Assembly (NCBI GenBank): GCA_016187945.1
Contig: JACPIT010000005.1
Coordinates: forward strand, 1 to 64,000
Reading direction: 5' to 3'
Length of the DNA stretch: 64,000 bases
From: Opitutia bacterium
Lineage (GTDB): Bacteria; Verrucomicrobiota; Verrucomicrobiia; Opitutales; Opitutaceae
Numbering within the stretch: position 1 is the stretch's first letter; each line of letters opens with the position of its first letter. The position numbers and the translations under genes were made by a program. Positions 37,104 through 40,030 of this stretch are shown piece after piece. Below the pieces are notes generated by a model, which saw only the letters and a program-made list of their open reading frames with translations, was not told the origin of the DNA and made no database searches.

Positions 37104-37520
37104 TTACTTCACCGCGATCTTGCGCGGCTTCACGGCCTCGGCTTTCGGCAGCGAGACGCGGAGCACGCCGTCGTTCAGCTCGGCGCGGATTTGGTCCACG
37201 TCCACCGAGTTGTCGGGCTCGAGCGCGAGCGCGAAGGGCGCGTCGACCGACTCGCGGTAGAGTTGCGTCCAGGCCTCGGGCTTCGCCCAGGCGCGCCGAC
37301 CGCGAATGCTGAGGACGTTTTCCTCGACGGAAATCTCGAGGCCGTCCTTCGCGACACCGGGCAGGTGCACCGTGAGGCCCCAGGCTTCGTCGGTTTCCTT
37401 CAGTTCGTAGAGCGGCTTGATGGCGTAGTCCGAGTCGGCGGCGGCGCTGGTGCCGCTGTCGCTTTCGCGACGCGAGACGGCGCGCGAGAGGCGCGGAACG
37501 AGTTGGTTGAAGAGAGTCAT
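37104..37520 (-). CDS. Small heat-shock protein, Hsp20/alpha-crystallin family
   Basis: 138 residues. The start at 37520 is fixed by AGGAGGAT 7 bases upstream (37528-37535), one of the best ribosome sites in the window. Alpha-crystallin domain about 50-135: ELKETDEAWGLTVHLPGVAKDGLEISVEENVLSIRGRR ... LNDGVLRVSLPK. The C-terminus KPRKIAVK holds a variant of the I-x-I anchoring motif. Second gene of a two-gene operon; the products probably form mixed oligomers that hold unfolding proteins. Confidence 0.95.
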   Translation of the reverse strand: MTLFNQLVPRLSRAVSRRESDSGTSAAADSDYAIKPLYELKETDEAWGLTVHLPGVAKDGLEISVEENVLSIRGRRAWAKPEAWTQLYRESVDAPFALALEPDNSVDVDQIRAELNDGVLRVSLPKAEAVKPRKIAVK

Positions 37521-37548
37521 GGTAACAGATCCTCCTGAGTCGTGGTGG

Positions 37549-37980
37549 TTAGTTGACGTTGATGGCGATCTTGCGCGGCTTCGCCTGCTCCTTCTTCGGG
37601 AGCGTGACGGTGAGCACGCCATTCTCGAGGGCGGCGGCGACCTTGTCGGACTGCACGCCATCGGGCATCGAGATCGAGCGGCTGAAGCTGAGCGTCTGTT
37701 CGCCGTCCTTGCGGGTGGCGTTGATCGTCAGGTAGTCCTCGATCATCTCGACGGCGAGATCCTCGCGCTTTACGCCCGGGAGCTCAGCGCGGAGGTAGGT
37801 GTTGTTCTTGTCCTCGTAGAGATCGACAGGGAAGCGCGGCGTCGCCGGCGTGCCCGTGCCGGCCAGAGCGGTCGCGAAAAAACGATCGATTTCCGACTCC
37901 AAGCCGGTCCACGGGTTTTGAAAAGCGGACCCACGATAGAGGCCCGCGCGCGGATAGGTATAACGAACGATGCGATACAT
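37549..37980 (-). CDS. Small heat-shock protein, Hsp20/alpha-crystallin family
   Basis: 143 residues from the ATG at 37980, with AAGGAGAA 8 bases upstream (37989-37996). Alpha-crystallin domain about 47-138: VDLYEDKNNTYLRAELPGVKREDLAVEMIEDYLTINATRKD ... LENGVLTVTLPK, ending with PRKIAIN (I-x-I type tail). First gene of the operon, 28 bases before the second hsp20. Strong ribosome sites on both genes fit high stress-induced output. No CIRCE element or ROSE-type thermometer was recognised upstream. Confidence 0.95.
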   Translation of the reverse strand: MYRIVRYTYPRAGLYRGSAFQNPWTGLESEIDRFFATALAGTGTPATPRFPVDLYEDKNNTYLRAELPGVKREDLAVEMIEDYLTINATRKDGEQTLSFSRSISMPDGVQSDKVAAALENGVLTVTLPKKEQAKPRKIAINVN

Positions 37981-38275
37981 GGTGGTGGTTCTCCTTTTTT
38001 GAAAGTGTGCCAGCCCCCATGCACCCGACGTGCCGCCCAGCGCTTCGGTGCAAACCGCCGAAAAACCGCTACTTACTTTTCCCGGTGGAAAACCGGTGAG
38101 CAAATCTGTCCGGCAGTGAGACGACTCGCCTGGGAAACTTCGGCGCGACACCGTCTCGGCCTCGCCCGCGAACGACCGTCCCACGCTCAACCAGCACAGC
38201 GCGCCGCCAATGTGACATCGCGCGCATTTTCCCGTGGCCACGCCCGCGCCCGGTGCGCCAACCTACGCGCTCCCG

Positions 38276-39430: not shown

Positions 39431-39527
39431 ACGGTCCCGCCCCATTCGCGCCGCGCGATGCCGATCGCCCCGCCCACGGCAACGCGTCGTTAGCCACTTC
39501 GTGCACTGCACCCGCCGCGCGTGCCAC

Positions 39528-39548
39528 TTGTAACCTATTAGGTTACAA
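39528..39548. repeat. Palindrome P1 of the HTH cassette (21 bp, central T)
   Basis: Perfect 10-bp arms TTGTAACCTA / TAGGTTACAA around one base (T). A wider inverted pair GTGCCACT (39521-39528) and AGTGGCAC (39564-39571) surrounds it. Confidence 0.95.
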
Positions 39549-39581
39549 AGCCGATGAGCTTCAGAGTGGCACACAGGACAG

Positions 39582-39602
39582 TTGTAACCTAATAGGTTAC
39601 AA
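39582..39602. repeat. Palindrome P2 of the HTH cassette (21 bp, central A)
   Basis: Same arms as P1 with central A. It ends one base before the ATG of the HTH gene; its AGG (AGGTTACAACATG) is the only possible ribosome site, so a bound protein would block translation start or promoter. Confidence 0.95.
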
Positions 39603-39603
39603 C

Positions 39604-39960
39604 ATGGACTACGTGCATCCTCGTTTAGCAACTTGGTTGGCGATCGGTTCGGAGCTTTTCGCCGCCGGGGAACAGATGGTCGACATGGCTCGTCAGAAGA
39701 TGCGGGCGAAACGCTGGGCCTCTTACTCCACGGTTCGCCCCGGTGTCGGCACGCCGCTGTGGAACGTGCTCGTCCGGGAACTGCGAACCGAGCTGGCCAC
39801 ACACGGCGCCAAGACGCGGCTCGCACGCTACCTCGGCGTTTCGCGGCAACGTTTGCAGGATTTTCTCGTCGGGACGAATCGTATGCCCGACGCGGAACTC
39901 ACGCTGCGCATGCTCCACTGGCTGGCGGAGAAGCGAGCTGGTCGCGATCTGTCGTTGTAA
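39604..39960 (+). CDS. Helix-turn-helix DNA-binding protein of a palindrome-framed one-gene cassette
   Basis: 118 residues. The N-terminal half (about 1-55, MDYVHPRLATWLAIGSELF...) is helical and of no known family. The C-terminal half (about 56-115) contains a Cro/CI-like helix-turn-helix, AKTRLARYLGVSRQRLQDFLVG, followed by NRMPDAELTLRMLHWLAEK, as in XRE regulators. The ATG starts one base after palindrome P2, and the TAA stop lies inside palindrome P3, so the gene is exactly framed by the repeats. The first 60 bases are about 50% G+C with TTA and TTG codons, unlike neighbours, which suggests transfer. Probable role: binds the palindromes and represses itself, or serves as the mobility protein of the cassette. 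Confidence 0.8.
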   Translation: MDYVHPRLATWLAIGSELFAAGEQMVDMARQKMRAKRWASYSTVRPGVGTPLWNVLVRELRTELATHGAKTRLARYLGVSRQRLQDFLVGTNRMPDAELTLRMLHWLAEKRAGRDLSL

Positions 39961-39975
39961 CCTATTAGGTTACAA
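39955..39975. repeat. Palindrome P3 of the HTH cassette (21 bp, central T)
   Basis: Identical to P1. The stop codon TAA of the HTH gene is formed by its left arm (TTGTAACC). Confidence 0.95.
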
Positions 39976-40009
39976 ATCGAGGATGACGTAGAGTGAACGC
40001 TTCGGTGCA

Positions 40010-40030
40010 TTGTAACCTAATAGGTTACAA
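40010..40030. repeat. Palindrome P4 of the HTH cassette (21 bp, central A)
   Basis: Identical to P2. The P3-P4 centre distance is 55 bp, P1-P2 is 54 bp, and both spacers contain GATGA followed by AGAGTG. Confidence 0.95.

Follow-up and report, generated by a model that had tools for sequence, protein, structure and literature searches.

Several kinds of short palindrome recur across bacterial chromosomes. MatP/matS, Noc/NBS, and SlmA/SBS each couple one DNA-binding protein to some tens of dispersed palindromic sites. Other dispersed bacterial palindromes, as treated in the papers compared here, either have no dedicated gene, as with the CGTC REPs, or are tied to a transposase, the RAYT. REPINs owe their duplication to RAYT transposases, whose genes are single-copy and vertically inherited (PMC8049555). 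Rickettsia palindromic elements (RPEs) are described as entering unrelated genes without breaking the reading frame, where they encode a conserved peptide (PMC10969869). For Opitutus terrae, a survey reports a high enrichment of GTAG repeats, of which many are intragenic, and the interruption of both uvrA genes (PMC3733652).

The palindromes described here were encountered in a 64,000-nucleotide stretch of DNA (the window) from an Opitutaceae genome, where they frame a gene for a helix-turn-helix (HTH) protein. The whole is best explained, in our view and with moderate confidence, by a dispersed palindromic family of the Opitutaceae that resembles REPINs and RPEs and has the framed HTH cassette as its home. 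In the open-access literature (titles and the starts of abstracts, with subscription journals mostly outside), no account was recognized of dispersed palindromes that also frame the gene of their own HTH protein.

A framed single-gene cassette

A sequence-only reading of the window had proposed a self-contained unit framed by four identical palindromes at 39528, 39582, 39955, and 40010. A scan with TTGTAACCTANTAGGTTACAA, allowing up to three mismatches, returned these four matches only, all perfect, with 0 expected from 100 shuffles, and so confirmed the positions (Table 1). The palindromes are identical in their arms but not at the center base. Their start-to-start spacing is 54 bp for P1-P2 and 55 bp for P3-P4, and the motif found in the P1-P2 spacer is a middle motif that is also present in other doublets. 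The ORF coordinates agree with the gene as it had been read: a single base separates P2 from the ATG (39604), and the TAA stop (39958-39960) is supplied by P3.

Table 1. Features of the framed cassette, in window coordinates
Feature	Coordinates	Strand	Remarks
P1, perfect 21-bp palindrome	39528..39548	.	Center T
First-doublet spacer, 33 bp	39549..39581	.	Minus strand has CACTCTGA
P2, perfect 21-bp palindrome	39582..39602	.	Center A; probable operator
XRE-type HTH gene, 118 aa	39604..39960	+	Coding 39604-39957 (118 codons); stop in P3
P3, perfect 21-bp palindrome	39955..39975	.	Center T
Second-doublet spacer, 34 bp	39976..40009	.
P4, perfect 21-bp palindrome	40010..40030	.	Center A; end of the cassette that recurs in G003 (L051)

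No plausible second gene was found in the 503-bp cassette, in which the other ORFs of at least 60 aa all overlap the HTH gene, and a toxin-antitoxin module was rejected with no partner gene in the cassette. The HTH_3-like domain and the presence of P2 at the gene's own start codon fit an XRE-family autoregulator, which would repress its own promoter through P2, centered 12 bp before the ATG. G+C content is 0.75-0.76 just upstream, 0.49-0.52 over P1-P2 and the gene start, 0.46 over P3-P4, and 0.62-0.69 inside most of the HTH gene. The drop to about 50% that had been noticed at the gene start is therefore real, but the dips belong to the palindromes more than to the gene, and a foreign origin read from them was rejected for the same reason.

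We take the upstream neighbor of the cassette to be a PatB-like aminotransferase gene and the downstream neighbor to be a DusB-like tRNA-dihydrouridine synthase gene. Beyond the former, at 37104-38241 on the minus strand, lie two adjacent ORFs that presumably encode Hsp20-type small heat-shock proteins. The window gene sits between the same two neighbors in five species (G000, the window genome, and G003, G005, G007, and G008), and this single conserved position, an outcome that the sequence-only reading had named as refuting, counts against the mobility that had been suggested for the window's own copy.

Elsewhere, framed copies differ in their presence between relatives. Genome G003 holds a second, non-syntenic copy of the cassette (L051) that matches the window copy at 68% over 513 bp, with homology spanning from within a few base pairs of P1 up to P4. 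At the corresponding site in G008 the flanks abut and the cassette is absent; the flanks were not found together in G000, G004, G005, and G007, which are uninformative there. A paralogous cassette of G000 (L034) is missing in all five relatives compared (G003, G004, G005, G007, and G008), where its flanks abut or lie at most 70 bp apart (four junctions were read). The extra DNA at this place in G000 measures about 700 bp, compared with about 400 bp for the framed unit. No clear target-site duplication was seen at the empty-site junctions of either cassette, and these junctions are old. Presence and absence at two places suggest that the framed gene occasionally relocates as a cassette. Empty sites of the kind that the sequence-only reading had associated with a mobile element thus exist for both L051 and L034. 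Its proposal of a self-contained mobile unit survives in part, in the L051 copy that recurs as a unit and in the two empty sites, but the window copy keeps one position in five species, and the model of its protein reveals no catalytic domain.

A separate 32-bp inverted repeat, GGATGAACGCGTTGA..TCAACGCGTTCATCC, lies at L034:769-800. This stretch has many short matches in G005 and a few in G003, G004, and G007, and represents another dispersed repeat family.

Dispersed doublets and in-frame copies

The window genome is a 5.47-Mb draft of 16 contigs. Its 17-bp palindrome core, GTAACCTANTAGGTTAC, occurs at 31 sites (reversed control, 0), of which 25 lie within 70 bp of another core, in pairs or a triplet. 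The palindrome is indeed absent from the rest of the window, as had been stated, yet 27 more cores are present elsewhere in the genome, so that multiple palindrome copies per genome, one of the signs that the reading had asked for, do exist. The wider pattern GTNNNCTAWTAGNNNAC has 46 sites (control, 0), which divide into type A (GTAACC, 31 sites), type B (GTAGTC, 12 sites, one of them imperfect), and type C (GTCACC, three sites).

Among the 35 distinct neighboring A/C pairs at most 150 bp apart in the loci collected, spacing is 52-56 bp in 20 (exactly 54 bp in 16) and 65-69 bp in 13 (exactly 66 bp in seven), and the remaining two pairs are spaced at 45 and 99 bp. The spacers, which often have a CACTCGG-like middle, resemble one another. 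Their information content is 22.0 bits in the 54-bp class (n = 16; shuffles 8.9, sd 0.6) and 41.2 bits in the 66-bp class (n = 7; shuffles 23.9, sd 1.2), values that are inflated by the orthology of some compared spacers across species. This excess over shuffles suggests that the doublets descend from a common unit, and the related spacers point to copying, by which the palindromes would have spread as doublets of about 75 or 87 bp, some of them in frame.

Within 102 A/C sites, arm complementarity reaches 0.81 at positions +-9 (shuffled, 0.53) and 0.61 at +-10 (shuffled, 0.33), and pairing exceeds every shuffle at +-6, +-9, and +-10. From +-11 outward, no excess over the largest shuffle was found at these sites, so selection for long hairpins is unsupported on average. 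Long outer arms do occur, singly and without conservation, such as one of 19 bp in L048.

A 12-kb segment of G000 (L265, C1:238800-251500) lies between type-B palindromes at 239123 and 251141 and has similar ends of about 100 bp. Its outer flank anchors are separated by about 215 bp in both G005 and G007.

Certain copies lie inside conserved proteins. At L016, L018, L019, L021, L024, and L027, the palindrome is read as CNL(L/I)GY in a single open frame; the evidence was limited to copies with conserved flanking protein because spurious long ORFs arise in a GC-rich genome. At L019, the residues between the conserved MT and WQVRNK number seven in G004, 12 in G008, and 36 in G007, where a full CNLIGY...CNLLGY doublet falls within the 36, and the shorter alleles of G004 and G008 are without the palindrome. 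The G004 linker at L021 is likewise shorter and palindrome-free. Every relative compared has the palindrome or a variant at L016 and L024.

The HTH protein and its frames

An AlphaFold2 model of the 118-aa protein (mean pLDDT 82, pTM 0.56) has a long N-terminal helix (residues 6-33) followed by XRE-like HTH helices (51-111), among which helix 81-89 is taken as the probable recognition helix. The conserved PDAE and TPLW motifs, predicted to stand at helix starts, look structural. No catalytic domain was recognized in the model, which makes a transposase unlikely; this role was rejected for a protein modeled as a long helix plus an XRE-like HTH only. A Foldseek search of the PDB returned 201 matches at E up to 10 and none at or below 0.001; a designed DNA-binding protein heads the list, and its first seven entries include SinR, CylR2, and DdrO. 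Pfam gave the window protein weak YdaS and HTH_3 matches, both below the cut-off. A named family was also rejected for the 26 members of A1, for which Pfam matches are weak (best E 0.00055, YdaS_toxin, eight members), NCBIfam HigA matches one member (0.0034), and three PHROGs match one member each. Purifying selection acts on the protein (dN/dS 0.08-0.49 in 11 pairs, at dS 0.90-2.36, which is near saturation).

Across 288 genomes sampled from the phylum, 17 match the HTH family, including 14 of the 25 same-family genomes listed; the three outside the family match weakly. The HTH family therefore appears nearly confined to the Opitutaceae, as far as family can be read from record names, which for 39 loci are Opitutus, Candidatus Didemnitutus, Lacunisphaera, Rariglobus, and Candidatus Synoicihabitans. 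One peptide pattern matched 12 stretches in viral_contigs, none of which was confirmed as a relative, and a viral origin was rejected.

Framing is widespread among the homologues. Ninety-two homologue loci were scanned, and 67 distinct ones remained after 13 without a recognizable motif and 12 duplicates had been dropped. In 47 of the 67, the 45 bp preceding the ATG have a stretch of 10 nt or longer in common with the stop region, versus 241 of 4422 mismatched pairs. When one deviation is allowed, a TANTA-like palindrome stands on at least one side in 47 of the 67 and on both sides in 34. Of the 38 homologues that have one upstream, 30 place its center 9-16 bp ahead of the start codon. The 20 homologues without such a palindrome include L033, L050, and L064, which show imperfect repeats instead.

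Several palindrome types coexist in one genome. G000 contains three further HTH genes that are 42-44% identical to the window's; L032 has a type-B frame, L034 has ATGGCGTATTACGCCAT on both sides, and L033 has an imperfect repeat. A search for GCGTAWTACGC, a pattern that includes the L034 frame, gave 22 sites in G000, seven in G005, and eight in G007 (controls, 0); the frames around L057 and L061 are counted among the sites of the latter two genomes. G000 thus has the L034 type in addition to types A, B, and C.

The sequence of the frame follows that of the putative recognition helix. The strongest covariation links positions +5 to +8 of the half-site to residues 80, 82, 84, 85, and 88 (47 homologues; top z 15.1), and residues 70 and 109 covary with these positions as well. 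In partial Mantel tests, the half-site correlates with residues 79-88 at 0.59 when the rest of the protein is controlled (0 of 2000 permutations) and with the rest of the protein at 0.19 when the helix is controlled (also 0 of 2000), although these permutations model shared descent only in part. Examples of helix and half-site pairs are HRARIGEYF with TACGAACA, PRQRLQD with TA(G/C)GTTACA or TATATTACA, PRQRLHN with TAGGTGACA, and SRQRL..CL with TAGACTACA. An exception is L046, in which PKQRLHN accompanies a TAGGTTAC consensus and the upstream frame is a mixed GTCACC/GGTTAC palindrome. Because helix and palindrome arms covary, the HTH protein very probably binds its own framing palindromes, presumably as a dimer that would place one recognition helix on each half-site. 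The suggestion in the sequence-only reading that the protein recognizes its own ends gains support accordingly.

One syntenic locus (L033, L050, L052, L061, and L064) also differs from species to species in frame sequence and recognition helix. Frames of two unlike half-sites, one of them often TAAGCAA, are seen at L033, L050, L058, and L064, and it is possible that these are intermediates in a change of specificity. Co-evolution of gene and sites is not strict, since the dispersed sites of G005 read ATTTGCCGTAATACGGCAAAT/ATTTGCCG, yet TTTTGCG palindromes frame its HTH gene L057, the syntenic counterpart of L055. The mismatch with L057 is displayed at L129, L249, L251, and L259.

A plain autoregulated repressor, with P1-P4 as operators and the other copies as incidental members of its regulon, would suit the XRE-like fold, the abutment of P2 on the start codon, and the recurrent distance between palindrome center and ATG. 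It leaves unexplained the palindromes at stop codons, the copies in frame in unrelated genes, the presence or absence of whole cassettes, and the slots that hold different palindromes in different genomes (see below). The in-frame copies in particular make this explanation hard to hold, and we regard it as highly improbable.

Orthologous sites and comparison with known systems

Flank anchors were used to look in five genomes for the places orthologous to 15 type-A loci of G000. This returned no orthologue for L025 and a single one, in G004, for L023; a 165-bp G003 fragment at L019 was not used, and a 4.5-kb G007 stretch at L026 was skipped. By the A/C core criterion, palindromes are present at nine of 12 places in G005 (the others being degenerate at L027, of another type at L021, and absent at L022), at eight of 10 in G007 (variants at the other two), at three of seven in G008 (another or variant palindrome at two, none at two), and at two of two in G003. 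G004, which has no detected homologue, has the core at 0 of seven places and variant palindromes at one (L024). At 11 loci, with gaps set aside, 90% of aligned 17-bp core bases are identical in G005 and 91% in G007, compared with 67% and 69% of the surroundings; gapped bases amount to 88/357 in the core and 305/1948 in the surroundings for G005, and to 31/306 and 268/1725 for G007. Most comparable type-A sites are thus common to several species, and present mobility is unsupported. Against the mobile unit of the sequence-only reading, G005 and G007 have most of the dispersed palindromes too, where comparison is possible, and these are unattached to a gene.

Twenty further G000 loci were fetched; anchors were obtained for 15, and eight were aligned with G005 and/or G007. 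At L236 and L238, an L034-type palindrome in G000 faces ATTTGCCGTAATACGGCAAAT or the reverse complement of it in both relatives. The same holds at L241 for G005 only, with none in G007. L246 is type B in G000 and a type-A doublet in G005. No palindrome was scored in either relative at L240, where G005 by eye has a near-copy of its own L064-type repeat; none was found in either relative at L232 and L239, or in G007 at L245. Another subfamily's palindrome also occupies the orthologous place in G008 at L020 and in G005 at L021.

At L232 (C8:154326-155736), G000 has about 255 bp extra, with two L034-type palindromes, one of them degenerate, and short tandem repeats like CGACGGTCGTGCC.

The distribution of palindromes follows that of the protein in 12 same-genus genomes, five of which are only 73-86% complete. 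Counts of GTNACCTAWTAGGTNAC are 42 in G003, 51 in G005, 42 in G007, and 15 in G008, which have a homologue at least 68% identical; two in G002, eight in G006, 0 in G011, and 0 in G012, which have only homologues at most 50% identical; and 0 in G001, 0 in G004, 0 in G009, and one in G010, in which no homologue was detected.

The 0-1 cores in the four genomes with no detected homologue are among the points in favor of the main rival, in which a host HTH protein with 30-50 selected sites would serve a fast-evolving chromosome-organizing or global regulatory network like those of MatP/matS, Noc/NBS, and SlmA/SBS, and the sites would persist through their function and not through spreading. The return of cores at orthologous positions, their slower drift relative to the flanking sequence, the rigid spacing of pairs, and the purifying selection on the protein are also consistent with such a network. 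Nevertheless, related spacers and inserts facing shorter alleles (L019 and L021) are not expected from point selection on sites. Furthermore, several subfamilies with different specificities coexist in each genome, each with its own sites, frame and recognition helix differ between species at a syntenic locus, the family is patchy among the same-family genomes, and the gene is framed on both sides. We consider the network rather unlikely.

Ordinary REPs or REPINs moved by one of the genome's RAYT (Y1) transposases, with the HTH genes as passengers or captured regulators, offer another alternative. G000 has eight Y1_Tnp (RAYT-like) loci (L035-L042), subfamily B palindromes start with GTAG, and O. 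terrae is reported to be rich in intragenic GTAG REPs (PMC3733652), some families of which may include certain of these palindromes. However, all eight Y1 loci, each of about 3.2 kb, lack both the CTANTAG core and any perfect palindrome whose arms reach 10 bp, and a RAYT partner was rejected on these grounds. It is moreover the HTH gene that is framed, in 47 of the 67 homologues, with a recognition helix that tracks the palindrome, and the palindromes are symmetric, subfamily A beginning with GTAA and not GTAG. This makes ordinary REP or REPIN movement improbable.

A dispersed family with the HTH cassette as its home, the explanation that we prefer, shares much with described elements. As in REPIN/RAYT systems (REPtrons), repeats flank a single-copy, vertically inherited gene, and palindromic doublets are dispersed in several families per genome with repeat-specific genes; here, doublets are inverted, fall into multiple families, and have one of the two spacings in 33 of 35 pairs. 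In contrast to those systems, the framed gene encodes an XRE HTH protein, all-helical and with no Y1_Tnp match or Y1/HUH domain, the palindromes are symmetric and TAWTA-centered, and helix and repeat covary. The GTAG tag that REPtrons have at one end is also missing as such, with GTAA in type A and GTCA in type C, both symmetric, and GTAG at both ends in type B. RPEs share the in-frame insertion with a conserved peptide, here CNL(L/I)GY, but they are about 150 bp long and the doublet only about 75-87 bp, the relatives bear Opitutaceae names, and the same palindrome frames a DNA-binding gene. MITEs, too, are short, bear inverted repeats, and can occupy ORFs without shifting the frame; here, no parent transposase was found among the Y1 loci, the class searched, and no clear target-site duplication was seen at the junctions, which are old. 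Given the HTH nature of the framed gene and the lack of palindromes at the Y1 loci, the system is not filed as a member of the REPINs or RPEs. The best reading is that of a REPIN/RPE-like layout and dynamics in which the transposase appears to be replaced by a DNA-binding HTH protein.

Under the preferred explanation, palindromes that have spread would be kept as binding sites of the HTH protein of that genome, or their slot would yield to the palindrome of another HTH subfamily, a replacement suggested by the different palindromes observed per slot. The DNA itself might be moved by an HUH (Y1) transposase acting in trans or by host template switching, both of which are conjectures.

The resident protein of this family is a DNA-binder, in contrast to the dispersed palindromes of the papers compared here, which have no dedicated gene or are tied to a transposase. 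Only tentatively do we propose a categorically new intragenomic element, in which a DNA-binder without a catalytic domain would alone "own" a palindrome population, helix and sites would change largely in step, subfamilies would compete for slots, and host proteins would carry the site as an in-frame peptide. The 47 natural pairs of helix and half-site are the start of a specificity code for this HTH family. Overall, the system opens to test how a protein and tens of sites change specificity jointly, how palindrome symmetry is kept up, and how far proteins tolerate repeated in-frame inserts.
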